DNA of 64,000 nt from Georgenia thermotolerans (GTDB taxonomy: Bacteria; Actinomycetota; Actinomycetes; Actinomycetales; Actinomycetaceae): NCBI RefSeq assembly GCF_009193185.1, contig NZ_VUKF01000013.1, positions 1 to 64,000 of the forward strand. The letters are read 5' to 3'. A program made the translations under genes and the position numbers. The notes under the pieces are model-generated. The model saw only the letters and a program-made list of their open reading frames with translations. It ran no database searches and was not told the DNA's origin. Below are positions 11,174-41,348 of this stretch, piece after piece; positions within the stretch are counted from its first letter, which is position 1, and each line of letters begins with the position of its first letter.

Positions 11174-11193
11174 AACCATACGATCGTTTGGCT
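11174..11193. promoter_or_regulatory. Candidate TetR operator A
   Basis: AACCATACGATCGTTTGGCT fits the island palindrome AACCAAnCGnnCGnTTGGTT with two half-site mismatches. It lies between the divergent pntAB and CoA-transferase operons, 160 nt from pntA and 114 nt from the CoA-transferase A start, so it could control both directions. Confidence 0.65.
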
Positions 11194-11306
11194 ACGGTGA
11201 CCATACCGTCTCTGGTCGTTCAATTACCCGTGAGACAGGTAACCCTCTGGGCACCGCGGTCCACCACGCTCCGACAGGTGCCAATGAGTCGAGATGAAGG
11301 TGTGCG

Positions 11307-11999
11307 GTGATTGACAAAGAGGTCACGGACGCGGCGGCGGCAGTCGCTGACGTCCCGGACGGTGCGACGCTGATGATCGGCGGCTTCGGCCCTCCCGGCC
11401 AGCCCGTGCACCTCATCGAGGCCCTCCTCGAGCTGGGCACGACGGACTTGACCGTCATCAACAACAACGCCGGCGCCGGTGGCGAAGCCATCTCCCAGCT
11501 GTTCGCCGCGCGTCGGGTCCGCAAGGTCATCTGCTCGTTCCCCAAGGCGATCGGCTCGACCGTCTTCGACGAGCTGTACCTGGCCGGCGAAATCGAACTC
11601 GAGCTCATCCCGCAGGGCACGCTCGCCGAACGGATCCGGGCTGCTGGAGCGGGCATCGGCGGCTTCTACACCCGCACGGGGTACGGGACCGAGCTGGCGG
11701 AGGGCAAGGAGGTGCGGGAGCTCGACGGCAAGCACTACGTCTTCGAACGTCCACTCGCCGCCGACTTCGCCCTCATCAAGGCTCACAGCGCCGACCCGAT
11801 GGGCAACCTCGTCTACCGCAAGACCGCGCGGAACTTCGGTCCGGTCATGGCGACCGCAGCCAGGACGACCATCGCCGAGGTGGACCACGTCGTGCCGGTG
11901 GGAGCCCTCGACCCCGAGGCCATCGTGACGCCCGGGATCTACGTGGACCGCTTCATCCGATCAGTTCCGGCCGCCGCCAGGAAGGAGGCGTCCTCGTGA
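11307..11999 (+). CDS. 3-oxoacid CoA-transferase subunit A
   Basis: Alpha subunit of a two-subunit family I CoA-transferase (PcaI/ScoA/AtoD/DcaI type), which moves CoA from succinyl-CoA or another donor to an organic acid. The 230-residue product has the family glycine-rich segment MIGGFGPPGQPVHLIEAL and the INNNAGAGG motif. The GTG start at 11307 follows an AAGG ribosome-binding site. It overlaps subunit B by 4 nt. In this cluster it probably activates the dicarboxylic or hydroxy acid released after lactone hydrolysis, or 3-oxoadipate; the acceptor cannot be assigned from sequence. Confidence 0.9.
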   Translation: MIDKEVTDAAAAVADVPDGATLMIGGFGPPGQPVHLIEALLELGTTDLTVINNNAGAGGEAISQLFAARRVRKVICSFPKAIGSTVFDELYLAGEIELELIPQGTLAERIRAAGAGIGGFYTRTGYGTELAEGKEVRELDGKHYVFERPLAADFALIKAHSADPMGNLVYRKTARNFGPVMATAARTTIAEVDHVVPVGALDPEAIVTPGIYVDRFIRSVPAAARKEASS

Positions 12000-12685
12000 A
12001 ACTCTCCCGTCACCAGATCGCCGCCCGAGTGGCGCAGGACATCCCGGACGGCTCCTACGTGAACCTGGGCATAGGACTGCCCACGCTGATCGCCGACTTC
12101 CTGCCCGAGGACCGCCAGGTCATCCTGCACACCGAGAACGGCATGCTCGGCATGGGACGCGCGGCCGCCCCTGGCGAGGAGGACGCCAACCTCATCAACG
12201 CCGGGAAGGTCTACGTGACCGAGGAGCCCGGCGCCGCGTACTTCCACCACGCCGACTCCTTCGCCATGATGCGCGGCGGGCACCTCGACTTCTGCGTCAT
12301 GGGCGCCCTGCAGGTCTCCACCCGCGGTGACCTCGCGAACTGGCGCACCACCTCCCCCACGGCGATTCCGGGCGTGGGTGGCGCCATGGACCTCGCCGTG
12401 GGCGCGAAGCACGTCTTCGTCGTGATGGAGCTGTTCACCCGCTCCGGCGACTGCAAGCTAGTCGAGGACTGCACCTACCCGCTCACCGCGGCGGAGTGCG
12501 TCGAGCGCGTCTACACCGACGTCGCGATCTTCGCACCCGACCCCGAGGGCCTCCGCGTCCTGGAGATCTTCGACGATGTCGACCTCGAGACACTCAGCCA
12601 CCAGGTCTGCCTTCCCCTTCTCGACGGGCGAGGCTCGGCTCCCACCGAGCAGCGTGCCGCCCTTGTTCCTGACTCGTCATCATGA
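11996..12685 (+). CDS. 3-oxoacid CoA-transferase subunit B
   Basis: Beta subunit of the CoA-transferase, 229 residues. The catalytic glutamate that forms the glutamyl-CoA intermediate lies in the conserved TENGMLGMG motif near residue 46, preceded by YVNLGIGLPTLI. GTGA coupling to subunit A (4-nt overlap) indicates one heteromeric enzyme. It is followed 10 nt later by bioY. Homologues include PcaJ, ScoB and DcaJ. Confidence 0.92.
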   Translation: MKLSRHQIAARVAQDIPDGSYVNLGIGLPTLIADFLPEDRQVILHTENGMLGMGRAAAPGEEDANLINAGKVYVTEEPGAAYFHHADSFAMMRGGHLDFCVMGALQVSTRGDLANWRTTSPTAIPGVGGAMDLAVGAKHVFVVMELFTRSGDCKLVEDCTYPLTAAECVERVYTDVAIFAPDPEGLRVLEIFDDVDLETLSHQVCLPLLDGRGSAPTEQRAALVPDSSS

Positions 12686-12695
12686 TCGGAGATTC

Positions 12696-13304
12696 ATGAC
12701 CGCCATCACTGTCCAGCCGCACGGTCGCGTGCTGGCCGACCTGCTCCCCCGCAGCGCTGCGACCAACGCCGCCCTTGTCGTCGGCGGGACGGCCCTCGTG
12801 GGCGTCCTCGCCCAGGTCTCGGTGCCGCTGTGGCCCGTCCCCATCACCGGGCAGACGCTGGGCGTCATCCTCGTCGGCGCGAGCCTCGGGGCCCGGCGCG
12901 GGGCGGCATCGCTCGCGCTCTACCTCGTCGGCGGCCTCGCGGGCCTGCCGATCTTCGCCAACTTCACCGGCGGTCCGCTGTCCGTGATGAAGCCGAGCTT
13001 CGGCTTCGTCATCGGCTTCGTGATCGCCGCGTACGCCATCGGCTGGTTCGCCGAGCACAACTGGGGCGCCACCTTCTGGAAGTCACTGGCGGCCTTCTCG
13101 ATCGGCAGCGTGATCCCGTTCCTGGTCGGCGTGCCCTACCTCGGGCTGATGCTCGGCCACCTCGGGCAGCCCAACGACCTCGGCACGCTCATGGCCCTTG
13201 GCGTGACGCCGTTCCTCCTCGGCGGGGCCATCAAGGCCCTCCTTGCGGCGGGCCTCCTGCCGCTGTGCTGGAAGGCCGTGCGACGGATCGACCGCGCGCG
13301 CTGA
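12696..13304 (+). CDS. bioY: BioY-family biotin transporter S component
   Basis: Integral membrane substrate-binding subunit for biotin uptake, 202 residues. The sequence has about six hydrophobic segments and the BioY signatures PITGQTLGVILVGASLGARRG and the GGLAGLPIFANFTGG loop. The ATG at 12696 is chosen because the membrane protein begins there and the frame upstream overlaps the transferase. No dedicated EcfT/EcfA genes are adjacent. Its placement in a catabolic operon makes sense because the same regulon encodes a biotin-dependent carboxylase (34559-38024). Confidence 0.92.
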   Translation: MTAITVQPHGRVLADLLPRSAATNAALVVGGTALVGVLAQVSVPLWPVPITGQTLGVILVGASLGARRGAASLALYLVGGLAGLPIFANFTGGPLSVMKPSFGFVIGFVIAAYAIGWFAEHNWGATFWKSLAAFSIGSVIPFLVGVPYLGLMLGHLGQPNDLGTLMALGVTPFLLGGAIKALLAAGLLPLCWKAVRRIDRAR

Positions 13305-13305
13305 A

Positions 13306-13354
13306 GCCACCAACCAACCGGTCGTTGACAGAAGGGGCGACCGGTGGTTGGTTG
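13306..13354. terminator. Imperfect 19-bp inverted repeat after bioY
   Basis: The arms 13306-13324 and 13336-13354 can pair around an 11-nt loop. Each arm carries the ACCAACC/GGTTGGT half-site seen in the TetR operators; the left arm alone also matches the operator pattern over 13312-13331 with a degenerate right half. It could be the bioY terminator, an operator, or both. No U-run follows. Confidence 0.5.
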
Positions 13355-13362
13355 CCTTCAGC

Positions 13363-13382
13363 AACCAAACGCTCGGTAGATG
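13363..13382. promoter_or_regulatory. Candidate TetR operator B
   Basis: AACCAAACGCTCG is a perfect left half plus both central CG pairs of the island palindrome; the right half (GTAGATG) is degenerate. It lies 90 nt upstream of the Baeyer-Villiger monooxygenase start and just after the inverted repeat at 13306-13354. Confidence 0.5.
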
Positions 13383-13471
13383 CGGGGCCGCCTCTTCCCG
13401 CCAGTCCCGGAAGAGGCGGTTCCGACGACACCGGGATCAGTTTCCCACTTCACGAACCCAATGGAGAGTTC

Positions 13472-15112
13472 ATGATGGCTACGCAGCACACCCAGAGCGG
13501 GTCCGACGTCGACGTCGTCGTCATCGGTGCCGGCTTCTCCGGACTCTACGCCACATACAAGGCCAAGCAGCTCGACCTGTCGGTTAAGGCCTTCGACGCG
13601 GGCGACGACGTCGGCGGCGTCTGGAACTGGAACCGATACCCCGGAGCCCGGACCGACTCCCTGCACCACACGTACCAGTTCTCCTTCGACAAGGAGCTAC
13701 TCAACGAGTGGGCCTACTCCGAGATCCACCCCTCGCAGCCCGAGGTGCTCGAGTACCTCCACCTGGTCGCGGACCGCTACGACCTGCGCCAGCACTACAC
13801 GTTCAACACCACGGTGAAGTCGGCGGTGTTCAACGAGAGCACGGGCCGCTGGGAGTTCGAGACCGACACCGGCCAGACCGCCTCGGCCAAGTACTTCCTC
13901 ACCGGCATGGGCCTGGTGTCCGACCCGCACAAGCCCCGCTATCCCGGCGAGGAGACGTTCGCGGGCGAGATCTACCACACCTCCCGATGGCCCCAGGAGC
14001 CCGTCGACTTCACCGGCAAGCGGGTCGCCGTCATCGGCACAGGCTCGAGCGGTGTGCAGATCGTGCCCCAGATCGCTAAGGTCGCCTCCGAGCTGACCGT
14101 CTTCCAGCGCACCCCGAACTACTGCCCCGGCACCGGGAACCGCCCGGTGACGGCGGAGGAACTGCAGGAGATCCGGGAGAACTACGACGAGGTGTGGCGC
14201 CGCGTGCGCAACCACCCCGCCGGCTGGCCGTGGGAGCCCACCGGGCGGCTCACGCTGGAGGCCACGGAGGAGGAGCGCGAGCGCCTGTTCGAGGAGATGT
14301 GGAACCGTGGCGGGTTCTCGATCCTTTACGAGGCTTTCGACGACCTCGCCACCAACTGGGAGGCAAACGAGCTGGCGTGCGACTTCATGCGCCGCAAGAT
14401 CCGCTCCATCGTCAAGAACCCGGTCGTCGCGGAGATGCTGTGCCCGGACTACCCGTACGGTGCCAAGCGGCCGCCGGCCAGCGACGGCTACTTCGAGTCC
14501 TTCAACCTGCCGCACGTGAGCCTCATCGACGTCAACGCCACACCCATCACGGCGCTCACGCCGGCCGGTATCCGCACGTCCGCCACGGACGTCGACGTCG
14601 ACATCATCGTCTACGCGACCGGCTTCGACGCCATCACCGGGGCCTTCACGCGGATGGACATCCGCGGTCGCGGCGGCGAGCGGCTCAACGACCACTGGGC
14701 CCAGGGTCCGGACACCTACCTGGGGATCTCGGTCGCCGGGTTCCCGAACATGTTCATGGTCGCCGGACCGCAGAGCCCGTTCGCCAACCTGCCCCCCGGG
14801 GCGCAGCAGATCGGCGACTGGATCGGTGACCTCATGGCGTACATGCGGGAGCACGACATCGAGTTCATGGAGCCCACCCGCGAGGCCGAGGTCGCGTGGA
14901 CCGCGCACCTCAACGAGGTCGCGAAGATGTCGACGGCGGGCGACGGCGAGGCCGTCAACTCCTGGTTCACCGGCGCGAACATCGAGGGCAAGGTGCGGGC
15001 GTTCAACGTCTACTTCGGTGGCGCCAACAACTACGCGGACCGGTGCGACGCCGAGGCCGCGAGCGGGTACGCCAGCTTTGTGCGCAGCGGGCGGCTCGCC
15101 GAGCTCGTCTGA
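13472..15112 (+). CDS. Type I Baeyer-Villiger monooxygenase, cyclohexanone monooxygenase-like
   Basis: NADPH- and O2-dependent flavoenzyme that converts a cyclic ketone to a lactone. The 546-residue product resembles cyclohexanone monooxygenase throughout. It has the FAD Rossmann motif GAGFSGLY near residue 19, GVWNWNRYPGARTD, the Baeyer-Villiger fingerprint FAGEIYHTSRWP, the NADPH motif GTGSSGVQ, and late conserved segments ATGFDA and NMFMVAGPQSPFANLPP. The ATG at 13472 has a GGAGAG ribosome-binding site; a second ATG follows at once. It heads the ring-opening operon. The ketone range is not readable; cyclohexanone-sized or terpenoid ketones are reasonable. Confidence 0.9.
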   Translation: MMATQHTQSGSDVDVVVIGAGFSGLYATYKAKQLDLSVKAFDAGDDVGGVWNWNRYPGARTDSLHHTYQFSFDKELLNEWAYSEIHPSQPEVLEYLHLVADRYDLRQHYTFNTTVKSAVFNESTGRWEFETDTGQTASAKYFLTGMGLVSDPHKPRYPGEETFAGEIYHTSRWPQEPVDFTGKRVAVIGTGSSGVQIVPQIAKVASELTVFQRTPNYCPGTGNRPVTAEELQEIRENYDEVWRRVRNHPAGWPWEPTGRLTLEATEEERERLFEEMWNRGGFSILYEAFDDLATNWEANELACDFMRRKIRSIVKNPVVAEMLCPDYPYGAKRPPASDGYFESFNLPHVSLIDVNATPITALTPAGIRTSATDVDVDIIVYATGFDAITGAFTRMDIRGRGGERLNDHWAQGPDTYLGISVAGFPNMFMVAGPQSPFANLPPGAQQIGDWIGDLMAYMREHDIEFMEPTREAEVAWTAHLNEVAKMSTAGDGEAVNSWFTGANIEGKVRAFNVYFGGANNYADRCDAEAASGYASFVRSGRLAELV

Positions 15113-15245: not shown

Positions 15246-16169
15246 ATGAGCGAGACCCGAGTGAGCGAGGTCCTCGTCGAGGACCAGCAGGCCGTCCTCG
15301 ACGAGGTCGTGAAGATGTTCGTCGACGCCACCCCGCCGGTGGGCGCCCCCATCGAGGACTGGCGCGCCGGCTTCGAGAACATGGCCGCGAGCTTCGAGAT
15401 CCCCGCCGACGCGGTCATCGAGCCCGTCGAAGCCGACGGCGTGCCCGGCCTGAAGGTGTCCGCACCCGGCGCCGCGGATGATCGCGTGATCATCCACTTC
15501 CACAGCGGCGGCTACGTGCAGGGATCGTCCACCTCCTACCGCAACTTCGCCTACCGCCTCTCCGCGGTCACCCAGGCGCCGGTGATCGTGCCGGACTACC
15601 GGCTCGCGCCCGAGAACCCGTTCCCCGCGCCTGTTGAGGACGCCACCACGGTGTACCGGTGGGCCCTGGCGCAGTGGGACGCCTCGAGGATCGTGATCAG
15701 CGGCGACTCCGCCGGCGGCGGCCTCGCCATGGCCACGCTGCTGGCCCTGCGCGACAGCGGCGCCCCGCGCCCGGCTGCCGGGGTCACCATCTCGGCGCTG
15801 CTGGACCTCGCCGGCGAGGGCCAGTCGGCCACGACCAACGCCGAGTCGGACCCGCTCATCGACCGGGCCATGGTCGTGGACATGGGCAAGGTCTATATCG
15901 GCGACATCGACCCGCACACGGAGCCATACTGCTCGCCGCTGTGGGGCCAGCACAACGACCTGCCCCCGCTGCTGCTGCTGGCCAGCAACTCCGAGGTGCT
16001 GCGCGACGACTCCGTCCGCTTCGCCGAGAGCGTGCGCGCCGCCGGCGGCTCCGCCGAGCTGTCGCTCCCCGAGGGCATGGTGCACATCTGGACCCTGTTC
16101 CCCAAGCTCGAGCAGGCCGAGGCCAGCCTCAAGGAGATCGGCGACTTCGTCCGGTCCCACCTCGGCTGA
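15246..16169 (+). CDS. Alpha/beta hydrolase (HSL-type esterase), probable lactone hydrolase
   Basis: Hormone-sensitive-lipase family esterase of 307 residues. The oxyanion hole is HSGGYVQG (the family HGGG with Gly2 replaced by Ser), the nucleophile elbow is GDSAGGG, and DYRLAPENPFPAP is the typical HSL segment; the catalytic His is in EGMVHIWTLF. The ATG at 15246 sits downstream of a GGAAAGGA site. Placed directly after a Baeyer-Villiger monooxygenase, it most likely opens the lactone product to a hydroxy acid, the usual pairing in cyclic ketone pathways. Confidence 0.85.
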   Translation: MSETRVSEVLVEDQQAVLDEVVKMFVDATPPVGAPIEDWRAGFENMAASFEIPADAVIEPVEADGVPGLKVSAPGAADDRVIIHFHSGGYVQGSSTSYRNFAYRLSAVTQAPVIVPDYRLAPENPFPAPVEDATTVYRWALAQWDASRIVISGDSAGGGLAMATLLALRDSGAPRPAAGVTISALLDLAGEGQSATTNAESDPLIDRAMVVDMGKVYIGDIDPHTEPYCSPLWGQHNDLPPLLLLASNSEVLRDDSVRFAESVRAAGGSAELSLPEGMVHIWTLFPKLEQAEASLKEIGDFVRSHLG

Positions 16170-16178: not shown

Positions 16179-16949
16179 GTGGTAGCGGCCCGGGACCGGT
16201 TCCGGGGCAGAAGCGCGCTGGTCACCGGCGCGGGCGGCGACATCGGCTCCGCCGTCGCCGCCCGCCTCGCCGCGGAGGGCGCAAAAGTGACCCTCGTCGA
16301 CCGCGACCGTGACGCGCTGGACGGCGTCGCCGCCGCCATCACTCGCGGCGGCGGCGATGTCCGGCCGTACCCGGCGGACGTCGCGGTAGAGGACGAGGTG
16401 GCGCAGGCGGTCGCCGCCGCCGTGACCTTCGGCGGCGGCCTGGACTGCGTCTTCAACAACGCGGGCGTCACCGGTCCCGTCGCCCCGGTGACGGAACTCG
16501 ACCTCGCCGCCGTGGCACGCGTGCTCCAGGTCAACGTGCTCGGCGCCCTCGCCGTCGCCAAGCACACCCTCCCCCACCTGAAGGCCGGCGGCGTCCTCGT
16601 CCAGACGGGGAGCACCGCCTCCGTTGCCGGTGCGCCGCACCTGGCCCCCTACGTCATGTCCAAGCACGCCCTGCTCGGCCTGACGCGCGCGGCCGCGAAG
16701 GAAGTCGCCGGCCGGGGCGTCCGTGTGTGCGCTATCAGCCCGGGACCCGTGCAGGGCCGGATGATGGCCGGCATCGACGGCGGCCGCGAGCGAGCCGGCA
16801 CCGAGCCGCCGCCGAACCCGCTCGCGTTGGACGGCGGCCGGTACGCGCGGGTCGGCGAGGTGGTCGACGCAGTGCTGTTCCTCCTGTCCGACGACGCCAG
16901 CTTCGTCAGCGGCTCGGCCCTCGTGGTCGACGGCGGGAGGCTCGCATGA
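16179..16949 (+). CDS. SDR-family oxidoreductase (first of pair)
   Basis: Classical short-chain dehydrogenase of 256 residues. It has the cofactor motif TGAGGDIG near residue 15, an NNAG motif, the catalytic Ser region QTGSTAS and the YVMSK catalytic Tyr-Lys, ending in SGSALVVDGGRLA. Asp in LVDRDRD after the second strand favours NAD(H) over NADP(H). The GTG start follows a GGAG site 9 nt after the esterase. It probably oxidises a cyclic or hydroxy-acid alcohol. It overlaps the next SDR by 4 nt. Confidence 0.88.
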   Translation: MVAARDRFRGRSALVTGAGGDIGSAVAARLAAEGAKVTLVDRDRDALDGVAAAITRGGGDVRPYPADVAVEDEVAQAVAAAVTFGGGLDCVFNNAGVTGPVAPVTELDLAAVARVLQVNVLGALAVAKHTLPHLKAGGVLVQTGSTASVAGAPHLAPYVMSKHALLGLTRAAAKEVAGRGVRVCAISPGPVQGRMMAGIDGGRERAGTEPPPNPLALDGGRYARVGEVVDAVLFLLSDDASFVSGSALVVDGGRLA

Positions 16950-17701
16950 CGGACCGGCCGAACCTCCCCCTGGCCGGCAAGCGCTGCCTCGTCACTGGCG
17001 GCGGCACCGGGATCGGCGCCGCCTGCGCGGTCGATCTCGCGGGGCGCGGCGCGTCGGTCATGGTCGCGGACATCGATCACGCCGCCGCGACGTCGGTGGC
17101 TCGCTCGATCGGGGACCGCGCGGCGGCCTGCGCCATCGACGTGCGCGACCCGGCATCCGTGGCGGCCGCCGTGGATGCCACCGTCACCGCCCTCGGAGGG
17201 CTGGACGTCGCCGTCAACAACGCGGGCGTCGGCGTGCCGGTCGCCCGGGACACCGGGGACACCCCGGTGGACGAGTGGCGGCGCGTCCTGTCGGTCAACC
17301 TCGACGGCGTCTTCTACTGCCTGCGGGCGGAGCTGAACGCGATGCTCGCCGCAGGCGGCGGCTCGATCGTCAACATGGGGTCGGTCGGCTCGCTCGTGGG
17401 GTTGCCGGGGGCGTCGTCCTACACGGCCGCCAAGCACGGCATCCTCGGGCTGACTAAGGCGGCCGCCGCGGAGTACGCCGGCCGCGGGATTCGGGTCAAC
17501 CTGGTCACCCCCGGGTACGTCGACACTACGATCTCCCCACGCACTCCGGAGCAGAAGGCGGCGCTGGCAGCGAAGCACCCGCTGGGCCGGCTCGCCCAGT
17601 CCCCAGAGGTCGCTACCGTGGTGTGCTTCCTCGCCTCCGACGAGGCGTCCTACGTCACCGGTGCCGAGTACACCGTCGACGGCGGGTACACCGTGATCTG
17701 A
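16946..17701 (+). CDS. SDR-family oxidoreductase (second of pair)
   Basis: Classical SDR of 251 residues with TGGGTGIG, DIDHA after beta-2 (NAD-type Asp), NNAGVG, the MGSVGS serine and YTAAK active site, and the C-terminal YVTGAEYTVDGGYTVI. The ATG overlaps the stop of the preceding SDR, so the two are translationally coupled. One of the pair could be the entry alcohol dehydrogenase (alcohol to cyclic ketone) and the other could act on the hydroxy acid; which does which is not visible. Confidence 0.88.
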   Translation: MTDRPNLPLAGKRCLVTGGGTGIGAACAVDLAGRGASVMVADIDHAAATSVARSIGDRAAACAIDVRDPASVAAAVDATVTALGGLDVAVNNAGVGVPVARDTGDTPVDEWRRVLSVNLDGVFYCLRAELNAMLAAGGGSIVNMGSVGSLVGLPGASSYTAAKHGILGLTKAAAAEYAGRGIRVNLVTPGYVDTTISPRTPEQKAALAAKHPLGRLAQSPEVATVVCFLASDEASYVTGAEYTVDGGYTVI

Positions 17702-17782: not shown

Positions 17783-18091
17783 TTGCTCTACCTCGTCGAG
17801 TCTCGGGTGGCTCCACCGGCGGAGATCACCCCCGAGGACTGGCAGCGCCTGGCGCAGGCTGAGAGTGACTACGGCATCCAGGCGCGCCGAGACGGCCACC
17901 TGCTCCACATCTGGCGGATCGCCGGGAGGTACGCCGCGATGAGCATCTGGGAGGCGGCGGACCATGACGAGCTCCACGCTCTCCTGTGCGGGCTGCCGCT
18001 GTTCCCCTACGCCGACCTCACCGTCACCGCCCTGGCGACGCATCCGTCGACCCTCAGGTGGGGCGCCATCCAGTCCGGACAGCAGACCTGA
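17783..18091 (+). CDS. Muconolactone Delta-isomerase-like protein
   Basis: A 102-residue protein of the muconolactone isomerase (CatC) family: MLYLVESRV start, the Glu in PEDWQRLAQAES, LLHIWRIAGRYAAMSIWEAADHDELHALL and the LPLFPYADLTVTALATHPS end are characteristic. The start is a TTG at 17783 with a weak ribosome-binding site. The usual partners (CatA/CatB) are absent, so the substrate may be another unsaturated lactone. Together with the CoA-transferase it recalls the 3-oxoadipate pathway, but this is inference. Confidence 0.85.
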   Translation: MLYLVESRVAPPAEITPEDWQRLAQAESDYGIQARRDGHLLHIWRIAGRYAAMSIWEAADHDELHALLCGLPLFPYADLTVTALATHPSTLRWGAIQSGQQT

Positions 18092-18137
18092 GGGCTGCCG
18101 CACCACGCCCCCTCGAAAACCTCACGCAAGGAGACGA

Positions 18138-19181
18138 ATGCCCCACCTCTCGCCCGTGCCGACCATGTCCCGCGTGGTCACCCTCGCCCGGCGCCCGTCA
18201 GGCGTCCCGCAGCCCACCGACTTCAGCGTGGAGGAGGTCGAGCTGCCCCGGCTCCGAGAGGGCGACGTCCTCGTGTCGAACGAGTGGTTCTCGGTCGACC
18301 CCTCGATGCGGATCCGCCTCCACGGTGGCGACTCCGCGTACTTCGCGTCCTTCGCCGTGGGCGCCCCTCTCGAGGGATGGGCGGTCGGCAGGACGGTCGC
18401 CTCCGAGCACCCGAACTTCCAGGTCGGGGACTACGTCTTCCACAGCGCCGGCTGGCGCGAGCACGCCGTCGTCGCGCCCACCGCCGACGCATGGACGTCG
18501 CCACGGGTGGTCGATGTGTCGCGGTCGCGTCCGCCGCAGACGTATCTGGGCGCGCTGGGCCCCAGCGGGCTCACCTCGTGGGCCGGGTTGCTGCACGTGG
18601 CCGAGCTGCGCGAGGGGGACGTGGTCTACGTGTCCGCCGGGGCGGGCGCCGTGGGCACCTTGGCGGTGCAGATCGCCCGGCTCAGGGGACACCGCGTGAT
18701 CGCCAGCGCCGGGAGCGCGGACAAGGTCCGCTTCCTCACCGACGTGCTGGGAGCCGACGCCGCCTTCTCCTATCGCGACGGGGACCTCTCCGACCAGCTC
18801 GCCACCCACGCCCCGGGTGGCATCGACGTGTATTTCGACAACGTCGGCGGCGACCACCTGGACGCCGCCCTTGCGCATCTGAACCCCGGCGGCCGTGTCG
18901 CGCTGTGCGGGTCCATCTCCAGCTACAACGAGACCGGAGCCTCGCAGCCCGCGGTGCGGAACCTCTTCCGGGCTGTGGAGAAGGGGCTGACGCTGCGGGG
19001 CTTCCTCGCGCGGATGTTCGCCGACCGGCGCGAGGAGTTCCAGCGCGACCTGCACTCGTGGCTCGAGTCGGGCTCGATCCGCTTCCCCGAGACCATCGTC
19101 CGAGGGCTCGATGCCGCTCCCGCGGCGTTCACCGGGCTGTTTTCCGGGCAGAACCTGGGCAAGACGCTCGTGCAGCTGTGA
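18138..19181 (+). CDS. MDR-family NADP-dependent oxidoreductase (CurA/LTB4DH-like)
   Basis: Zinc-free medium-chain reductase of 347 residues, similar to E. coli CurA and leukotriene B4 12-hydroxydehydrogenases that reduce the C=C bond of enones. It has the N-terminal SVDPSMRIRL, the cofactor motif SAGAGAVGTLAVQIARLRG, and the family segment YFDNVGGDHLDAAL followed by ALCGSISSYN. The ATG at 18138 has a strong AAGGAGA site. In the cluster it may saturate an unsaturated ring or acyl intermediate. Confidence 0.88.
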   Translation: MPHLSPVPTMSRVVTLARRPSGVPQPTDFSVEEVELPRLREGDVLVSNEWFSVDPSMRIRLHGGDSAYFASFAVGAPLEGWAVGRTVASEHPNFQVGDYVFHSAGWREHAVVAPTADAWTSPRVVDVSRSRPPQTYLGALGPSGLTSWAGLLHVAELREGDVVYVSAGAGAVGTLAVQIARLRGHRVIASAGSADKVRFLTDVLGADAAFSYRDGDLSDQLATHAPGGIDVYFDNVGGDHLDAALAHLNPGGRVALCGSISSYNETGASQPAVRNLFRAVEKGLTLRGFLARMFADRREEFQRDLHSWLESGSIRFPETIVRGLDAAPAAFTGLFSGQNLGKTLVQL

Positions 19182-33735: not shown

Positions 33736-34562
33736 GGGGCGTCCTCGGCGTTGAACCGGGCGATCGCACCCTTCAGCCCGTACGTCTTGATCGACTCCTG
33801 GTACGCCTGCACCTCCGGCGTCAGGTGCAGCAGGGCGTCGGTCTCGGCGCCCATCCGCGCATAGGTCAGCAGCCCCTGCAGCTCGGCGGCGCGGTTGATC
33901 GCCTCCTTCTTGAGACGGAGCAGCGGCGCCGGGGTGCGCGCGATCGAGTGAGCGGTGCGGGCGACGTGCTCGTCGAACAGCTCTGGCGGCACGGACTCCG
34001 CGGCCCAGCCCCACTCCGCCGCCTGCTTGCCGGAGATCTTCCGTCCGGCGTCGAAGGACATGAGCTTCGCCCGCTTGGGGCCGACGAGGTGCACCCACAG
34101 GGGCGAGAGGTAGCCGCCGCCCAGCGGCAGCGCCGGCGAGGCCATGATGGTCGCGTCGTCACTGACGATGGTGATGTCGGCCAGCGAGGCGAGCTGGGTG
34201 GCGCCGGCCACGCAGTAGCCATGCACGGCGGCGATCACCGGCTGGGGGTGCCGCCAGACCTGGGTGAACCGCTCGATGTTGGACACGAGCCGGTCCCGGT
34301 CCTCCACCGGGGTGCGCTCGGCGGCGTAGCCGACCTCCGCGGAGTCGGCGGCGACGTCGTACCCGGCGCTGAAGGCCCGGCCCGCGCCGCGGATGACGAC
34401 GACCCGGTTGTCCGACGCCGCGAGGTCGGCGAGAACGGCCTCCAGCTCGTCGAGCATGGCGTCGTTCATCGCGTTGAGGCGCTCCGGCCGGTTCAGCGTG
34501 ACCCAGGCGACGTGGCGCTCCCGCTCGAGCAGGACGGTCTCGTTGCTGACGTCCACGGTCAT
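33732..34562 (-). CDS. Crotonase-family protein lacking both catalytic Glu
   Basis: A 276-residue crotonase-fold protein. N-terminal NRPERLNAMNDAMLDEL and the oxyanion-hole segment GAGRAFSAGYD are normal. The two hydratase glutamates are missing: the first falls in GATQLASLAD (Gln for Glu) and the second in ASPALPLGGGY (no Glu). It therefore probably does not hydrate enoyl-CoA; isomerase, hydrolase or C-C-bond chemistry is more likely. It is coupled by 4-nt overlaps to the carboxyltransferase upstream and the cyclase downstream. Confidence 0.85.
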   Translation of the reverse strand: MTVDVSNETVLLERERHVAWVTLNRPERLNAMNDAMLDELEAVLADLAASDNRVVVIRGAGRAFSAGYDVAADSAEVGYAAERTPVEDRDRLVSNIERFTQVWRHPQPVIAAVHGYCVAGATQLASLADITIVSDDATIMASPALPLGGGYLSPLWVHLVGPKRAKLMSFDAGRKISGKQAAEWGWAAESVPPELFDEHVARTAHSIARTPAPLLRLKKEAINRAAELQGLLTYARMGAETDALLHLTPEVQAYQESIKTYGLKGAIARFNAEDAP

Positions 34563-36019
34563 CGCTTGCTCACCTTCACGCTGTACTCCGGCGTCGAGAC
34601 GGCGAAGGAGGTGCTGCCGCCCGGGTCGGCGATCAGGTCGGTGATCGCGTTGACGATGTTGCTGGCGCTGCGGCGCGGGTCGGTCCGGATCGGGCCCTTG
34701 GCCAGCATCGCGTCGACCTCCTCGTCGGACATCATGAAGCGCAGGAGCAGCTCCTCGTCGGAGATGCCCGCGGGGAAGTTCTTGCGAATCTCGGTCAGCG
34801 ACGGGTCGGGCCGGGTCCAGTCCGCGAACTGCTTGGCGCGCGGGGTGGAGAGGATCCGGTCGAGCACGTCGGGCGCGATCGGGGACGGCAGGGGACCGTA
34901 GTGGCCGAGCGCGTAGTGGACGACCTCGTCGGGGACCATGCTGTACGGGTCGCCCGTGATGATGTTCAGGACCGCCTGGATCCCGACGAACTGAGAGAAG
35001 GGCGTCGCCATGATCGGCGAGCCGAGGTCGATGCGCACCTGCGGGATCTCGGCCAGCACCTCGGGCAGCTTGTCCCCCATCCCGTGGCGCTCGAGCTGGT
35101 TGATGAGGGTGCCGGTCATGCCGCCGGGCAGCTGGTGGTCGTAGATGCGCGGGTCGAACTCCGCGGGCACGCCCAGCGGGTGGTTGCCCGCCTGGGCCGC
35201 CCGGGTGAGCGCCTCGGCGACCGGCGCGAACGTCGAGGTGTCGAGCCCGTGCGTGTGGCCCATGTGCTCGATGATCGCCACCATCATCTCCGTGGAGGGC
35301 AGCGACGCCCCGTTGGCGAGCGGCCGCGAGGCGGTGTGCAGCCGGTTGAAGCCGCTCTCGACCGCGACGACGTAGTTGTGTTGGGCAAGCCCGGTGGTGT
35401 TGTGCGCGTGCATCTCGAGGGGCATCTCCCCCACCGCGGCCCTGATCGCCGGGAGCAGCGTCCGCGCACGTTCGGGCTTGAGCACGCCGGCGGCGTCCTC
35501 GACGTAGATGGACTCCACGCCCTCCCACGTGGCCATTTCGCGGGCGCGGTCAGCGAAGAACGCGTCGTCGTGCACGTCGGTTAGCCCGTACATGATCGCC
35601 GGCACCGGCTGACCGCCCGCGTCACGGACCACATTTACCATGTGCCGCATGGTCGGCATGTCGAACAGGCAGTCATAGAGCCAGAAGCTCGTCGCCCCGT
35701 GCTTGATGAGCGTCTGGATCCAGAGGTCCAGGATCGCCTGGGGCGTGGGGGCGAACCCCACGGCGCTGATGGTCCGAAGGCCGGAACGCAGCTCGTTACC
35801 GGGAAGGTTCTTCACCTGGAAGTCCAGGGTGGCCCAGGGGTCGTCGTAGTACTCGCGCAGCAGCACGGTGAACATGCCGGCGCCCGTGAGGTCGATGGTC
35901 CGGTAGCCGGCCCGTGCGAGGTGGGGTAGAGCCTCGGCGCCCTCGTAGGCACGCATCCGCATGCCCCACAGGCTCTGCTGCCCGTCGCGGAGGCTCTGGT
36001 CGACGAAATCGATGTGCAT
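34559..36019 (-). CDS. Biotin-dependent carboxyltransferase, pyruvate-carboxylase/OadA type, variant active site
   Basis: TIM-barrel (HMGL-like) carboxyltransferase of about 486 residues, homologous to transcarboxylase 5S, OadA and the CT domain of pyruvate carboxylase. The metal ligands Asp in DQSLRDGQQS and HxH in MHAHNTTG (near 204/206) are present, as are QLPGGMTGTLINQL and ATPFSQFVGIQAVLNII. The segment SIYVEDAAGVLKP has Glu near residue 174 where homologues have the carboxylated metal-bridging Lys (IKDMAG). The second of two ATGs is chosen for AAGGAGA spacing. It lies downstream of BCCP and biotin carboxylase genes. The acceptor (pyruvate or another keto compound) is unresolved. Confidence 0.85.
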   Translation of the reverse strand: MHIDFVDQSLRDGQQSLWGMRMRAYEGAEALPHLARAGYRTIDLTGAGMFTVLLREYYDDPWATLDFQVKNLPGNELRSGLRTISAVGFAPTPQAILDLWIQTLIKHGATSFWLYDCLFDMPTMRHMVNVVRDAGGQPVPAIMYGLTDVHDDAFFADRAREMATWEGVESIYVEDAAGVLKPERARTLLPAIRAAVGEMPLEMHAHNTTGLAQHNYVVAVESGFNRLHTASRPLANGASLPSTEMMVAIIEHMGHTHGLDTSTFAPVAEALTRAAQAGNHPLGVPAEFDPRIYDHQLPGGMTGTLINQLERHGMGDKLPEVLAEIPQVRIDLGSPIMATPFSQFVGIQAVLNIITGDPYSMVPDEVVHYALGHYGPLPSPIAPDVLDRILSTPRAKQFADWTRPDPSLTEIRKNFPAGISDEELLLRFMMSDEEVDAMLAKGPIRTDPRRSASNIVNAITDLIADPGGSTSFAVSTPEYSVKVSKR

Positions 36020-36115
36020 CATTGTCTCCTTGCGTGGCGGGCCGGCCGCTTCGCCGGTCCCGCGGTCACAGCCGGGCTCGCTGCCGCGGGCAGCGCGGAT
36101 TGGGTGGTGGCACGG

Positions 36116-37483
36116 TCACGAGGGCTGCCAGGCGGGAAGGAACCGCTCCTCGATCCACTTGGTCGTGATGGGCCGAGTGGCGAACTCGTCGTCGGCCATG
36201 ATCGCCCGATGGACGTCGACCGTGGTCTTGATGCCGGTGATGGCGACCTTGTCCAGCGCGCGGGACATCAGGCGCACGGCCTCGTCGCGCGACTCTGCAT
36301 GCACGATGAGCTTGGCGACGAGGGAGTCGTAGTACGGGCTGACCCGGGCGCCGGGGTGGGCGTAGGTGTCCACCCGGATCCCCGCGCCCTGCGGCACGGT
36401 CCACTCCTCGATCGTCCCTGGGGTTGGCGCGAAGTTGTTCTGCGCGTCCTCGGCGTTGATCCGCACCTCGATGGCATGGCCGCGGAAGTAGACGTCATCC
36501 TGGGTGAAGGACAGCGGTTCACCGCGGGCGACGCGCAGCTGCTCGCGGACGATGTCGATCCCGGAAATCATCTCCGTGACGGGATGCTCGACCTGCACGC
36601 GGGCGTTCACCTCGAGGAAGATGAACGCGCTCTTCTCCACGTCGACGAGGAACTCGACCGTTCCCGCGCCGACGTAGTTCAGCGCCCGGGCGAGGTCGAC
36701 CGCAGCCTGGCGGATCTGCTCGACCAGTGCGGCTGGCAGACCCACGCTAGGGGCCTCTTCGACGATCTTCTGGTAGCGACGCTGGGCCGAGCAGTCCCGC
36801 TCGCCCAGGTGAACGACGTTCCCGTGGGTGTCGGCGATGACCTGGACCTCGATGTGCCGGGCGTTCTCGATGTACGGCTCCATGTAGACGGTGCCGTCAC
36901 CGAACGCCCGCTCGGCCTCGTTGCTCGCTCGCGTGAAGTGTTCGAGGAGGTCCTCGGGCTTCCGGATGATGGTCATCCCCCGGCCGCCACCACCGGCCGA
37001 GGCCTTGAGCAGGAGGGGGTAGTTGTCGAGCGCCTCGGCGGCGTCGATCGCCTCGTCGACGGTGCGCAGCCCGGTGGTTCCCCGGCCGGTGGGGATCCCG
37101 ACAGACTCGGCGACCTCCCGCGCCCCGAGCTTTGAGCCGGCTCGGCGCATGACGTCTGCCGGTGGGCCGACGAATGTCAGTCCGTACTCCTCGCAGGCGT
37201 CCACGAGCTCGGGGCGCTCGGAGAGGAACCCGTACCCCGGGTGGACGGCGTCCGCGTCGGCGTAGGTCGCTGCGGCGATCACCCGGTCGATCGAGAGGTA
37301 GCTCTCGATCGCGGGTGCGGGGCCGACGACGACGACTCGGTCGGCCAGCCGTGCGGCCAGGGTGTCGCGATCGGCGTCGGAGACGACGAGGACGCTCTCG
37401 AGCCCCTCGTCGAAGCACGCCTTGACCACGCGCACCGCGATCTCCCCGCGGTTGGCTACCAGGACCCGGCGCATCTCAGGCAT
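36116..37483 (-). CDS. Biotin carboxylase
   Basis: ATP-grasp biotin carboxylase of 455 residues that carboxylates biotin on BCCP. It has RRVLVANRGEIAVRV, the glycine-rich loop KASAGGGGRGM, HIEVQVIADTHGNVVHLGERDCS, QRRYQKIVEEAPS and the active-site FLEVNARVQVEHPVTEM. The ATG at 37483 overlaps the BCCP stop; the Met three codons later is an alternative. It is AccC-like, but is placed with a 5S/OadA-type transferase rather than an AccA/AccD type. Confidence 0.95.
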   Translation of the reverse strand: MPEMRRVLVANRGEIAVRVVKACFDEGLESVLVVSDADRDTLAARLADRVVVVGPAPAIESYLSIDRVIAAATYADADAVHPGYGFLSERPELVDACEEYGLTFVGPPADVMRRAGSKLGAREVAESVGIPTGRGTTGLRTVDEAIDAAEALDNYPLLLKASAGGGGRGMTIIRKPEDLLEHFTRASNEAERAFGDGTVYMEPYIENARHIEVQVIADTHGNVVHLGERDCSAQRRYQKIVEEAPSVGLPAALVEQIRQAAVDLARALNYVGAGTVEFLVDVEKSAFIFLEVNARVQVEHPVTEMISGIDIVREQLRVARGEPLSFTQDDVYFRGHAIEVRINAEDAQNNFAPTPGTIEEWTVPQGAGIRVDTYAHPGARVSPYYDSLVAKLIVHAESRDEAVRLMSRALDKVAITGIKTTVDVHRAIMADDEFATRPITTKWIEERFLPAWQPS

Positions 37484-38024
37484 CCGGCTGGATCGTGAAC
37501 AGCGGCGTGCCGTGCTCGACGCCTGCGGCGTTGTCCAGATGGACCGCAGTGACGACGCCCGCAACGTCCGAGCTGACGTTGCTCATGAGCTTCATGATCT
37601 CGATGATGCAGAGGGTGTCCCCCACCTCGACATGATCACCGACCTCCGCGAACGGTGCGGCGCCCGGCTCGGGCGAGCGCCAGAAGACCCCCACGCTCGG
37701 CGACGTGATGACGTGCCCCTCCTGGGTCGCGGGCCCAGCGCTCGGGGCGGCGGGGGCGCCGGCGGGGTGCGCGGGCGCGGCCGCCGGTGCCGGGACCGGC
37801 GCGGCCGCCAGTGCCTGTGCTGCGGCGGGTGCGGGTGCCCCGGCGGGCACTGCCGCAGGTGCCGCACCGTGCGCTGCGGACGCATGGCCGTTCTGCTCCG
37901 CGAGCGTCGCACCGTTGCGCGCAACCGCGATCCGCACGTCACCGACGACCACCACCGCCTCGTCCCAGGCGGACTCCTGCAGAGTCTCGACGATGTTCTT
38001 GATATCTGCTGACGAGAGAGACAA
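37476..38024 (-). CDS. Biotin carboxyl carrier protein
   Basis: AccB-like BCCP of about 182 residues. The C-terminal biotinyl domain has the attachment site IIEIMKLMS (Lys biotinylated), preceded by GVFWRSPEPGAAPFAEVGDHVEVGD. An Ala/Pro-rich flexible linker covers about residues 55-100, and the N terminus is the AccB-type SSADIKNIVETLQ. The TTG at 38024 is preferred because AAAGGAAG lies upstream; another TTG at 38054 is possible. It is the first gene of the carboxylase operon, 41 nt after operator F. Confidence 0.9.
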   Translation of the reverse strand: MSLSSADIKNIVETLQESAWDEAVVVVGDVRIAVARNGATLAEQNGHASAAHGAAPAAVPAGAPAPAAAQALAAAPVPAPAAAPAHPAGAPAAPSAGPATQEGHVITSPSVGVFWRSPEPGAAPFAEVGDHVEVGDTLCIIEIMKLMSNVSSDVAGVVTAVHLDNAAGVEHGTPLFTIQPDA

Positions 38025-38064: not shown

Positions 38065-38084
38065 AATCAAACAATCGGTTGGTC
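38065..38084. promoter_or_regulatory. Candidate TetR operator F
   Basis: AATCAAACAATCGGTTGGTC matches the island palindrome with CA for the first central CG and two half-site changes. It lies 41 nt upstream of the BCCP start and is nearly identical to operator G. It probably controls the operon 38024-32761. Confidence 0.72.
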
Positions 38085-38231: not shown

Positions 38232-39077
38232 TCACCGGGCAAAGGCGAGCGGCCGGATCGGCGAGCCGGTGCCGCCCTTGATTCGCAACGCGGCTGCGGT
38301 GAAGAAGAATTCGTACACCCCGTCGGCCGCCAACCCCTCCAGGTTGACCGACTCCATGATGGGGACTCCTTGCTCGACGAGCAGATGCACGTGCACGTCG
38401 AGCGCCGGGACGCTCACGTGTGGCTTGTGCTCGAAGTTGACGGTGTCGGACCCGACCGCTCGGACGCCACGCTCGGTCAACCAGCGCGCTCCGGAGAGCT
38501 TGACCCCCGGCAGACCGGTGGCGAGCCCGAGGTACCGGTCGCTGTCCTCCCAGTACCGCATCCAGCCGGTCCGGAAGAGCACGATCGACCCAGGACCGGG
38601 CGTCTCCCGGTTGTCGAACCAGGACTGGAGCTCCTCGGCGCCGAAGCCGTCGGCCGGCGTCATCTCCCGGCCGAACAAAGCCGGGCCGTCCACCAGGTGG
38701 CCCGGCCCTACAAGGGGAGGCAGCTCCTCTACCGAGCCAACCTCGACACCGGCATGCGGGGTCTGGCGCTCCGCGACGGGGCGGCCGCCGTAGATACAGC
38801 CGTCGAGCGAGATGTGTCCCGGCGCGTCGACGTGGGTGCCCACGTGGGCCCCCATGGTGAGCAGCTCCATCGCCGACGAGATGCCGCCCGGGTACGGATG
38901 CTCACCGTGCTTCTTGACGAGGGTGTAGGAGTAGGGCGGGTGCGCCGGGTGGTGGGTCATCCCGTGCTCGAGCCGTACCGCGAGGTCGTAGGTCCGCTCG
39001 CTTGGCTCCTGCGGCCAAGCGGTCTCGCCTGACCACGTCTTGCCGCCCCAGTTGACGGCGACATCCTGTTGCGTCAT
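38232..39077 (-). CDS. PF04199 cyclase-family metal hydrolase (second)
   Basis: A 281-residue cyclase/kynurenine-formamidase-like hydrolase with the intact metal-binding motif HVGTHVDAPGH, then ALFGREMTPAD, PGSIVLFRTGWMRYW and GARWLTERGVRAVGSDTVNFEHKP. The ATG at 39077 has an AGGAGAGGA site. It differs from the first cyclase in keeping the canonical motif, so the two are not simple duplicates. It follows the FadB-like gene by 151 nt. A ring-opening hydrolysis is the likely role. Confidence 0.87.
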   Translation of the reverse strand: MTQQDVAVNWGGKTWSGETAWPQEPSERTYDLAVRLEHGMTHHPAHPPYSYTLVKKHGEHPYPGGISSAMELLTMGAHVGTHVDAPGHISLDGCIYGGRPVAERQTPHAGVEVGSVEELPPLVGPGHLVDGPALFGREMTPADGFGAEELQSWFDNRETPGPGSIVLFRTGWMRYWEDSDRYLGLATGLPGVKLSGARWLTERGVRAVGSDTVNFEHKPHVSVPALDVHVHLLVEQGVPIMESVNLEGLAADGVYEFFFTAAALRIKGGTGSPIRPLAFAR

Positions 39078-39228
39078 TTCAGTTCCTCTCCTGGCGTCTT
39101 TTTGGCACGCGCCCCTGGTTGTGTCTCGGGGGCGGCGTCACGGTCGTCGCGCTCTGGGCCTCGTGGCGGTCGTCTTCTTCGCCGGCATCGTGGCCGTGGC
39201 GCACCGGGGCGGGCCCGGGCGCGCGCGG

Positions 39229-41262
39229 TCATCTCGATGCCGCGCGCTCGAACATCTCGTGCGGAGCCACCTGCCGTAGCACCGCGCGGACAGCCTGGGG
39301 CAGCTCCCCGCGTGTGGCCGGCTCGGCAAGGGCGAAGGTCACGCGGCAGGAGCGGTAGGCCGCGGTAAGCGCCGCGATCACGTCGTCCTCCTCCCAGCGC
39401 GAGAGCAGGCGCAGGGGACCGCCGGTTGCGCGGGGGAAGGCGAAGCCCTCGGTGAGGGCGACGTCGATGTCCGAGGCGCGTTGCGCGACGCCGCTCTCCA
39501 TGAGCTGTACGGCCGCGCACAGCATGGAGGCCAGGATGCGCGCACGGATTTCGCCGTCGTCGATGCTGCGGGCGGCGATGCCCTTGGTGGCCCGGGCCTC
39601 CTCGATGATCCTGACGGCGTCGGGGTCGGGGAGGCCGCGCCGCGCCCCATCGGGATAGCCGTACCAGCCGGCACCGGTCTTGCGGCCGAGACGGCCGGCC
39701 TCGCAGAGCCGGTCGGGTATGTCGACGTAGCGCTGGAGCGGGTCGCGGGTCGGTGCGATGCGCTTCCGGCGGGCCCAGGCGATGTCTAGGCCTGACATGT
39801 CAGCCACCGCGAAGGGCCCGATGGCGAGGCCGAGCTGGACCATGGCGGCGTCGACCTGCTCGGGGGTGGCGCCCTCCTCGACGAGGAACTCCGCCTGCGT
39901 GCGGTAATCGGCGTAGACGCGGTTGGCGACGAACCCGTCTCCCACGCCGGCGGGGATGCCGGTCTTACCCAGCGCCTTCACCACGTCGGCGAGGGTGGCG
40001 GCGGTGACGTCGTCGGTCGTTTCCGCCCGGATGAGCTCCACGAGGGGGTTGCGGTCCGGCGGGTTGAAGAAGTGCAGGCCCCCGAAGCGCCGCGGATACT
40101 CAAGCGAGCGGGACATCTCGTTGATGTCCAGGTAGGAGGTGTTGGTGGCGAGCACGGCGCCCGGGGCGACGTGTCGCTCGACCTCGGCGAAGAGGTCGCG
40201 CTTGACGTCCATGTCCTCGAAGACGGCGTCGACCACGAGGTCGGCGCCAGCCAGGCCGCCCACCGTCTCGGTCGTCGTCAGGCCCGGCATCGCGCCGGCC
40301 ACCCGCGCAAGGGCCGCAGGGTTGGTGTCGAAGAGGACGACGCGATAGCCGGCCCCCGAGCAGGCACGCGCGAGCGCGGCGCCCATCGTGCCCGCACCGG
40401 CGATACCGACCGTGCGTACCGGGCGGGGCGCCACCTTCCCGCGCAACGCCTTGGCGGCGGCGCGCTTGGCGAAGAACAGGTACCGCAGGTTGGCCGCCTC
40501 CTCGCTCACCCGCAGCCGCTCGAAGATCGCGCGCTCCTCACTGAGCGCCAGACCGGCGTCCACCTCGGCGGAGCGGCGGACCATCCCGACCGCCTCGAGG
40601 ACGTTGGGCCGTGCCTTCCGGGCGTGCCGGGCGACGGCCTCCTCGACCTGCTCGGGGTTCGCGTGCGGGACTGACCGGTCACGGAGTCGACTCTTCCCGG
40701 CGAGGGACCGGGCAAGGTCAACGGCCCGGGCGAGCAGGTCTTCGGCCGGAACCACGTGGTCGAGGAGGCCGAGCTCGAGGGCCTCGTCGGCGTCGACCTG
40801 CCGCGCGCTGGCGACGAGGTCGATGGCGGTGGGCACGCCTAGCAGGCGGGCCGCGCGGACGGTTCCGCCCGCCCCGGGAAGGATGCCCAGCGTCACCTCC
40901 GGAAAGCCGAGTCGGGCGCTCGTCGCTCCGATCCGACCATCACACCCGAGCGCCAGCTCCAGGCCCCCTCCGAGCGCCAGCCCGGAGATTGCGGCGACCA
41001 CCGGCACCGGCAGCGACTCGATCACCTCGATCACGGCGGGCAACTGAGGGTCGATGAGCGGTCCGTCGAACTCGGAGATGTCCGAGCCCGCGTAGAAGTG
41101 TCGACCGGCGCCGATGATGACTACGCCGACGACGTCCGGGCCGGCCGCCCCGAGCGCATCGTAGAGGTCACGACGCAGCGTCGCGTTGCCCATGTTGACC
41201 GGTGGATTGTCGATGGTCAGGACGGCGACGTCTTCCACCATGGTGATCGAGACAGTTTCCAA
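39229..41262 (-). CDS. Bifunctional enoyl-CoA hydratase/3-hydroxyacyl-CoA dehydrogenase (FadB-like)
   Basis: Multifunctional beta-oxidation enzyme of about 677 residues. The N-terminal crotonase domain keeps both catalytic Glu (GGGLELALGCD and GFPEVTLGILPGAGG). The dehydrogenase domain begins with GIAGAGTMGAALARACSGAGY and includes the catalytic-His segment GGLHFFNPPDRNPLVELI and a C-terminal half with FVANRVYADY. The start is uncertain: the TTG at 41262 has AGGGA upstream, while GTG codons near 41286 are alternatives. It handles the second and third beta-oxidation steps. It is divergent from tetR, sharing operator G. Confidence 0.9.
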   Translation of the reverse strand: METVSITMVEDVAVLTIDNPPVNMGNATLRRDLYDALGAAGPDVVGVVIIGAGRHFYAGSDISEFDGPLIDPQLPAVIEVIESLPVPVVAAISGLALGGGLELALGCDGRIGATSARLGFPEVTLGILPGAGGTVRAARLLGVPTAIDLVASARQVDADEALELGLLDHVVPAEDLLARAVDLARSLAGKSRLRDRSVPHANPEQVEEAVARHARKARPNVLEAVGMVRRSAEVDAGLALSEERAIFERLRVSEEAANLRYLFFAKRAAAKALRGKVAPRPVRTVGIAGAGTMGAALARACSGAGYRVVLFDTNPAALARVAGAMPGLTTTETVGGLAGADLVVDAVFEDMDVKRDLFAEVERHVAPGAVLATNTSYLDINEMSRSLEYPRRFGGLHFFNPPDRNPLVELIRAETTDDVTAATLADVVKALGKTGIPAGVGDGFVANRVYADYRTQAEFLVEEGATPEQVDAAMVQLGLAIGPFAVADMSGLDIAWARRKRIAPTRDPLQRYVDIPDRLCEAGRLGRKTGAGWYGYPDGARRGLPDPDAVRIIEEARATKGIAARSIDDGEIRARILASMLCAAVQLMESGVAQRASDIDVALTEGFAFPRATGGPLRLLSRWEEDDVIAALTAAYRSCRVTFALAEPATRGELPQAVRAVLRQVAPHEMFERAASR

Positions 41263-41328
41263 GGGATTCCCTATCGTTGGCACGACGTGACTGCCCCCGT
41301 CGGCAGGTCGCGTACATCCGGATGATAG

Positions 41329-41348
41329 AATCAAACAAGCGATTGGTC
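41329..41348. promoter_or_regulatory. Candidate TetR operator G (autoregulatory)
   Basis: AATCAAACAAGCGATTGGTC matches the island palindrome and operator F. It lies in the divergent region, 67 nt from the FadB-like start and 56 nt from the tetR start, the usual place for a TetR autoregulatory site. Confidence 0.75.

Follow-up and report, generated by a model that had tools for sequence, protein, structure and literature searches.

KstR2, the TetR-family repressor of cholesterol catabolism, has the palindrome AnCAAGnnCTTGnT as its operator, and P450cin (CYP176A1) is the 1,8-cineole hydroxylase. PaaR (TTHA0973), a TetR-family regulator of the phenylacetate genes of Thermus thermophilus, is assigned two motifs, AACnAACGTTnGTT and CNAACGNNCGTTNG, in one report (PMC6651687). 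Two further papers state that P450cin starts 1,8-cineole metabolism, its source now being assigned to R. globerulus (PMC11889516), and that Rhodococcus erythropolis DCL14 has a carveol/dihydrocarvone route comprising a dehydrogenase, a carvone reductase, a ketone monooxygenase and an epsilon-lactone hydrolase (PMC4097962). Here we consider a catabolic island within 64,000 nucleotides (nt) of Georgenia thermotolerans (assembly GCF_009193185.1, contig NZ_VUKF01000013.1, positions 1 to 64,000; this whole stretch is hereafter the window), in which a 20-bp palindrome recurs between genes for the catabolism of an alicyclic compound, probably a p-menthane monoterpenoid. From sequence comparison we propose, with a probability of about 0.8, that the TetR-family protein encoded at 41404-42036 represses six or seven operons of this island. 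The type of system is known; the interest lies in a link to P450cin clusters, which was absent from the preliminary description of this DNA, in an altered carboxylase and in operators that appear to be built in 4-nt steps.

The seven sites, all intergenic, and the regulator gene are as follows, with distances measured to the start chosen for each gene.

11174-11193: predicted operator AACCATACGATCGTTTGGCT, 113 nt before coaTA and 159 nt from pntA, inside the spacer of TTGTCA-18-TACGGT
13363-13382: predicted weak operator AACCAAACGCTCGGTAGATG, 92 nt before the Baeyer-Villiger-type monooxygenase (BVMO) gene, abutting an inverted repeat (13300-13362)
22240-22259: predicted operator AACCAACCAATCGTCTGGTC, 31 nt before the SnoaL-like gene, immediately 3' of TTGACT-16-TAGACT
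25211-25230: predicted operator AGTCAAACGACCGTTTGATT, 86 nt before etfB (start 25124), over the -35 of TTGACT-17-TGTACT
32597-32616: predicted operator AACCAATCGGTCGTTTGGTT, 60 nt before the ABC binding-protein gene, downstream of TTGACA-17-TATGGT
38065-38084: predicted operator AATCAAACAATCGGTTGGTC, 40 nt before the biotin carrier gene bccp (chosen start TTG 38024), just past TTGCGG-17-TAGCAT
41329-41348: predicted operator AATCAAACAAGCGATTGGTC, between fadB (45 nt, chosen start GTG 41283) and tetR (55 nt)
41404-42036, plus strand: TetR-family regulator, predicted repressor (TetR_N 4e-18, TetR_C_24 2e-14)

The preliminary description had given these seven coordinates, all correctly, and site-to-start distances of 32-160 nt, in agreement with the 31-113 nt found here and the 159 nt to pntA. 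Its pattern, AACCAANCGNNCGNTTGGTT, which the site at 32597 fits with zero mismatches, has eight matches in the window at up to three mismatches, where 0.07 would be expected from dinucleotide shuffles; the eighth, at 42676, lies beyond the seven named sites. The six sites at 11174, 22240, 25211, 32597, 38065 and 41329 yield the palindromic consensus AAYCAAACRA-TYGTTTGRTT. Over the whole 4.64-Mb genome AACCAANCGNNCGNTTGGTT occurs at ten places, eight of them in the window, against four for a backward control, and the refined pattern AAYCAAACRATYGTTTGRTT, again with up to three mismatches, occurs at six places, all of them island sites, against none for its control; the equal frequency in unrelated coding DNA that the preliminary description had named as counting against its proposal was not seen. 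Off-island matches of AACCAANCGNNCGNTTGGTT at C41:25919 and C72:74547 do not fit the refined pattern and were dropped. Because AAYCAAACRATYGTTTGRTT was built from those same six sites, the independent test is the second genome, G255, discussed below.

A matrix trained on the six sites (all but 13363 and 42676) scores them at 26.4-31.1, 13363 at 19.3 and 42676 at 12.5. At a score of at least 17 it has seven matches in the window, against a mean of 0.0 in 20 shuffles; at 19.3 or above it has nine in 1.47 Mb of other loci, which are unmatched in composition, and the best of these nine is in locus L012 of the same-genus genome G008, beside a TetR relative. When half-sites were paired across 8001-43000, the six strong sites shared one spacing, with an inner gap of 4, and 13363 and 42676 were missed at gap 0 or 4. 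The earlier claim that all sites have the same internal spacing therefore holds for the six and breaks down at 13363, which is probably a weak operator. The match at 42676 is probably none: it was rejected for its three mismatches, its low matrix score and its lack of a half-site pair.

That the palindromes are chance occurrences or structural repeats, such as terminator hairpins or a mobile palindrome, and no operators at all, can hardly be the case given the ratio of found to expected matches (8 to 0.07), the genome-wide zero of the backward control for the refined pattern and the recurrence of sites beside counterpart genes in rearranged operons; speaking for it is the position of 13363 next to a 25-nt, 80%-complementary inverted repeat (13300-13362). 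The interval between bioY and the BVMO gene (13300-13424) holds two inverted repeats, one of 25 nt at 80% and one of 16 nt at 88%, which are perhaps the terminator of the CoA-transferase operon.

Among described operators, those of PaaR, also a TetR-family protein, resemble the island palindrome: the half-sites CNAACG/CGTTNG match the core of the island consensus, and AACnAACGTTnGTT and CNAACGNNCGTTNG resemble the 16-bp and 20-bp forms considered here, a likeness at the level of the operators. By inspection, the core positions of the refined consensus fit CNAACGNNCGTTNG and single sites deviate. The island palindrome is longer and its target genes are others. Scanning of the island proteins yielded no recognisable phenylacetate gene set, the PaaH and PaaF models matching FadB below their cut-offs only. 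KstR2 shows weak similarity to the island TetR (4w1u, E 7e-9); its operator is a different palindrome, and scans of the island proteins recognised no steroid gene set.

Promoter-like pairs scoring 8.1-10.2 were found at six of nine gene-oriented junctions (coaTA, SnoaL, etfB, binding protein, biotin carrier and fadB), above the 99% level of 7.9 set by 1000 random 140-nt windows; the -35/-10 weights were hand-set. The junctions of BVMO (7.0), pntA (7.0) and tetR (6.5) had no pair above that level. The operator lies in the spacer at coaTA and fadB, over the -35 at etfB and after the -10 at SnoaL, the biotin carrier gene and the binding-protein gene, and relative to these promoter-like sequences such placements are those of a predicted repressor. 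It is very unlikely that the sites are real and the 41404 protein acts on them as an activator or mixed regulator. An operator at the -35 or in the spacer, as at etfB, coaTA and fadB, would still allow activation in the strict sense; at SnoaL, bccp and the binding-protein gene, however, it follows the -10-like element, a place at which bound protein would be expected to obstruct transcription, and repression is the usual mode of TetR proteins with autoregulatory sites of this kind.

The preliminary description had each site precede an operon, with pntAB/CoA-transferase at 11174. For coaTA/bioY at that site this stands. For pntAB it does not: there is no promoter-like pair above the null, and four related loci contain no pnt match above 90 bits, so that pntAB was rejected as a target. 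The operon served by 11174 is most likely that of the CoA-transferase and bioY, with pntAB probably a mere neighbour.

The regulator itself passes the cut-offs of both PF00440 and PF17932, that is, an N-terminal helix-turn-helix (HTH) and a TetR-type C-terminal domain. Its HTH stretch G(V/M)LKGSLY(H/Y)Y is kept in all nine correctly framed TetR sequences, the window's included, and VGVLKGSLY is exact in six of the nine; the G008 row, which was out of frame, is excluded. It is the sole TetR among the island proteins scanned, a scan that left out some short open reading frames. A locus search with this protein returned, among the best 80 of 388, only distant relatives that are mostly 25-33% identical, higher only over short segments, and that served mainly as background. 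Among 396 sampled genomes of the order, a TetR match at E<=1e-25 occurs elsewhere only in G255, where the protein is 61% identical. In that genome AAYCAAACRATYGTTTGRTT has six overlapping matches amounting to five distinct places, all within C30:14.6-40.9 kb, and its control has none. Gene order in G255 is rearranged relative to the window, yet of the five sites one precedes acad2, one is at the thiolase/etfB junction, one in the bccp-coaTA interval and one in the tetR-fadB interval, and the thiolase/etfB and tetR/fadB junctions carry a site in both genomes. The fifth (14624), accompanied by a second match (21.1) at 14729, has a binding-protein gene on one side and, on the other, a metallo-beta-lactamase-fold gene that is followed by a PF04199 hydrolase gene. 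A matrix match also precedes the flavin monooxygenase (FMO) gene (22.2), and a hydantoinase-type pair has one at its 5' end (17.5); in all, 45 kb of G255 contain nine matches of at least 17 (two overlapping), against a shuffle mean of 0.25. Among 394 sampled genomes of the class, at least five matches were found only in the window genome and G255, and G447 and G492 have four each at scattered places.

The genome encodes 14 TetR matches at E<=0.001, the island's included and one of them, at C72:49972, 32% identical to it; since binding of the local TetR to the palindrome is a prediction, the palindrome might belong to a regulator encoded elsewhere, the local TetR controlling its own gene or others only. 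We consider this quite unlikely, because the motif tracks close TetR orthologues across genera, sits between tetR and fadB in both the window and G255, and in its refined form occurs nowhere outside the island. The C72:49972 homologue in particular is disfavoured, there being no matrix match of 15 or more in the surrounding 40 kb of C72. A single TetR regulon, as the preliminary description supposed, is the best reading of the data, given the restriction of the refined motif to the island, its recurrence near TetR orthologues beside counterpart genes despite rearrangement, and the repressor positions at six of nine junctions.

Two Rhodococcus plasmids extend the comparison, with TetRs about 50% identical over 80% of their length and 43-44% over the whole. 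Matrix matches of at least 17 number four on the R. pyridinivorans plasmid (shuffle mean 0.25) and five on that of R. opacus (0.15). On the latter one site precedes SnoaL-FMO, the equivalent of 22240, and one lies between acad2 and tetR (18.0), a place that scores 15.0 in R. pyridinivorans, where the counterpart of the SnoaL-FMO site is about 0.47 kb upstream of where the FMO is annotated to begin and further sites precede the ribA-CoA-transferase-fadB run and the flavin reductase-carboxylase run. The Rhodococcus clusters (L122 1-40498 and L123 1-40504) encode a near-P450cin P450 with flavodoxin and reductase, and are probable 1,8-cineole clusters: the R. pyridinivorans plasmid P450 differs little from P450cin across a 397-residue alignment (872 bits), and that of R. 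opacus is 92% identical to the R. pyridinivorans protein.

Of 61 convergent half-site pairs counted across 11 locus sets at gaps of -4 to 12, 45 are separated by an inner gap of either 0 nt (20 pairs) or 4 nt (25 pairs), with block-shuffled controls giving at most 0.3 per gap and set; in this count the loci are partly non-independent, certain sites enter under both gaps, and an AANC period runs through the half-site. Gap 4 dominates in the window and gap 0 in R. qingshengii and G454/G698, from which we infer that the operator may be built in 4-nt steps, with room for one or two dimers.

Several points weigh against the proposed regulon. Binding by the TetR, repression and the effector are all inferred. 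Only the left half of 13363 is good; promoter-like pairs at the tetR and BVMO junctions stay below the 99% null, and the promoter scores come from hand-set weights, null windows that are mostly coding and search spans of unequal length. On the Rhodococcus plasmids no match of at least 17 precedes the P450cin operon, near which a LuxR-type regulator is encoded, and in R. pyridinivorans the site at an LLM oxidoreductase gene falls just within the annotated reading frame. Among distant TetR carriers 20-bp matches are few (two in G736, one each in G484 and G454, none in G698 and G705), the site being weak or missing where the TetR is 32-44% identical, and G454, G698 and R. qingshengii show the 16-bp form instead. 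As to the pathway, no P450cin was found in the window genome (best P450 29%) and the substrate is deduced from homology.

Two loci with more distant TetRs deserve mention. The same-genus G008 has one 20-bp site, 1.3 kb from a 30%-identical TetR; the site (L136 1080-1119; G008:C12:205099-205118), with a score of 29.3, is by a thiolase gene adjoining that TetR gene, which may encode a paralogous regulator sharing this operator. In G705 (L163 1-14921) a TetR relative stands beside BVMO, hormone-sensitive-lipase-type hydrolase and short-chain dehydrogenase (SDR) genes. No 20-bp site there reaches a score of 14, and the locus may encode a similar ketone pathway under another operator.

Under the single-regulon proposal, a TetR dimer, or possibly two overlapping dimers since the half-sites recur in 4-nt steps, would occupy or adjoin the promoters and block transcription. 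The targets would be tetR itself, fadB, the carboxylase operon, the importer/acyl-CoA dehydrogenase/thiolase operon and etfBA-cytochrome b, as well as SnoaL-FMO, CoA-transferase/bioY and, more weakly, the BVMO operon. Release would be brought about by a pathway intermediate, most likely an acyl-CoA or a ring-opened acid. The genes concerned are the following.

11307-12685, plus strand: 3-oxoacid CoA-transferase subunits A and B (TIGR02429, TIGR02428)
12696-13304, plus strand: BioY biotin transporter (PF02632)
13475-15112, plus strand: BVMO (closest structures phenylacetone and cyclohexanone monooxygenases, E 1e-156)
15246-16169, plus strand: hormone-sensitive-lipase-type ester/lactone hydrolase (PF07859)
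16179-17701, plus strand: two SDRs
17964-19181, plus strand: CurA-like double-bond reductase, operon membership uncertain (NF058644, under cut-off)
20133-22208, minus strand: FMO (20133-21665) and SnoaL-like protein (21819-22208)
22386-25124, minus strand: cytochrome b561-like protein (cytochrome b match under the Pfam cut-off), EtfA and EtfB
25233-32536, minus strand: thiolase, two acyl-CoA dehydrogenases, ABC importer and binding protein
32761-38024, minus strand: carboxylase operon, with PF04199 hydrolase, enoyl-CoA hydratase, carboxyltransferase, biotin carboxylase and biotin carrier
38232-41283, minus strand: PF04199 hydrolase and FadB-like protein

A core of these genes is common to the window, G255 and the two Rhodococcus plasmids: the biotin carboxylase trio, two PF04199 hydrolases, enoyl-CoA hydratase, FadB, CoA-transferase, two acyl-CoA dehydrogenases, thiolase and FMO, the FMO at 44% in G255 and 77% in Rhodococcus. 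The P450cin-type clusters of Rhodococcus thus share this core with the island, together with a TetR relative and related operators. They differ in that the island has neither P450cin nor flavodoxin: no flavodoxin match was found in the window, and searches for P450cin in its own genome, G255 and G008 gave, respectively, a best P450 of 27-29%, none, and at most 31%. Instead, the island has the BVMO, the hydrolase, the two SDRs, the reductase and the ABC importer, and all of these but the importer run in one direction. In enzyme classes, the BVMO, hydrolase, SDRs and reductase recall the route of R. erythropolis DCL14. By chemical reasoning, the end products of the cineole and carveol/dihydrocarvone routes would be closely related C10 keto acids with an opened ring. 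The island would therefore probably degrade an alicyclic ketone or alcohol of the p-menthane type; on balance a p-menthane monoterpenoid appears its most likely substrate, since the lower half of the island is common to P450cin-bearing Rhodococcus clusters and its BVMO, hydrolase, SDRs and reductase fit the carveol/dihydrocarvone route.

The carboxyltransferase (34559-36022) resembles the pyruvate carboxylase beta and OadA subunits. At the aligned lysine position it has a glutamate (EDAAG versus KDMAG), as do all 11 sequences compared, the window's included and one of them partial; the replaced lysine we take to be the carbamylated, metal-binding lysine of pyruvate carboxylase, OadA and the 5S carboxyltransferase. 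Among the 394 class genomes this carboxyltransferase is found at E<=1e-150 in four and the TetR at E<=1e-30 in seven, the window genome being in both sets, and all four fall among the seven. G484 has two copies and G736 four (L154-L159), most of them sharing a stretch with dehydrogenase or acyl-CoA dehydrogenase genes, which suggests that several pathways use this enzyme. As 3-oxoacid CoA-transferase and thiolase lie in the same predicted regulon, it is an attractive guess that the island carboxylase converts a methyl ketone into a 3-oxo acid. It is doubtful, though conceivable, that all the parts hold together: the regulon would run a monoterpenoid pathway in which a biotin carboxylase with glutamate for the carbamyl-lysine turns a ring-derived methyl ketone into a 3-oxo acid that CoA-transferase and thiolase cleave, its operators being 4-nt ladders for one or two dimers whose half-site spacing shifts between 16 and 20 bp within the TetR subfamily. 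Such a monoterpenoid pathway with this carboxylase was not found in the literature searched, which covered the openings of abstracts, nor was a direct account of the regulator or carboxylase for cineole or carveol breakdown.

By 4-kb step, G+C is 65-73% in the island, 74-78% in the first 8 kb and 69-72% in the right flank, which is no different from the island. Acquisition of the island is likely. Beyond it, at 45987-48438, lie an IS110-type transposase (45987) and an integrase-like fragment (47383). A tRNA-Val called by ARAGORN at 6270-6359, within an FAD-oxidase gene and on the same strand, is probably a false positive.

In summary, our results turn loosely related operons into one testable regulon with its operator named to the base. 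They would also tie this regulon to P450cin-like P450 clusters, whose regulator was not found in the same literature. The island thereby offers a candidate ligand-responsive repressor together with a putatively co-regulated, sequence-distinct biotin carboxylase whose substrate can be sought.

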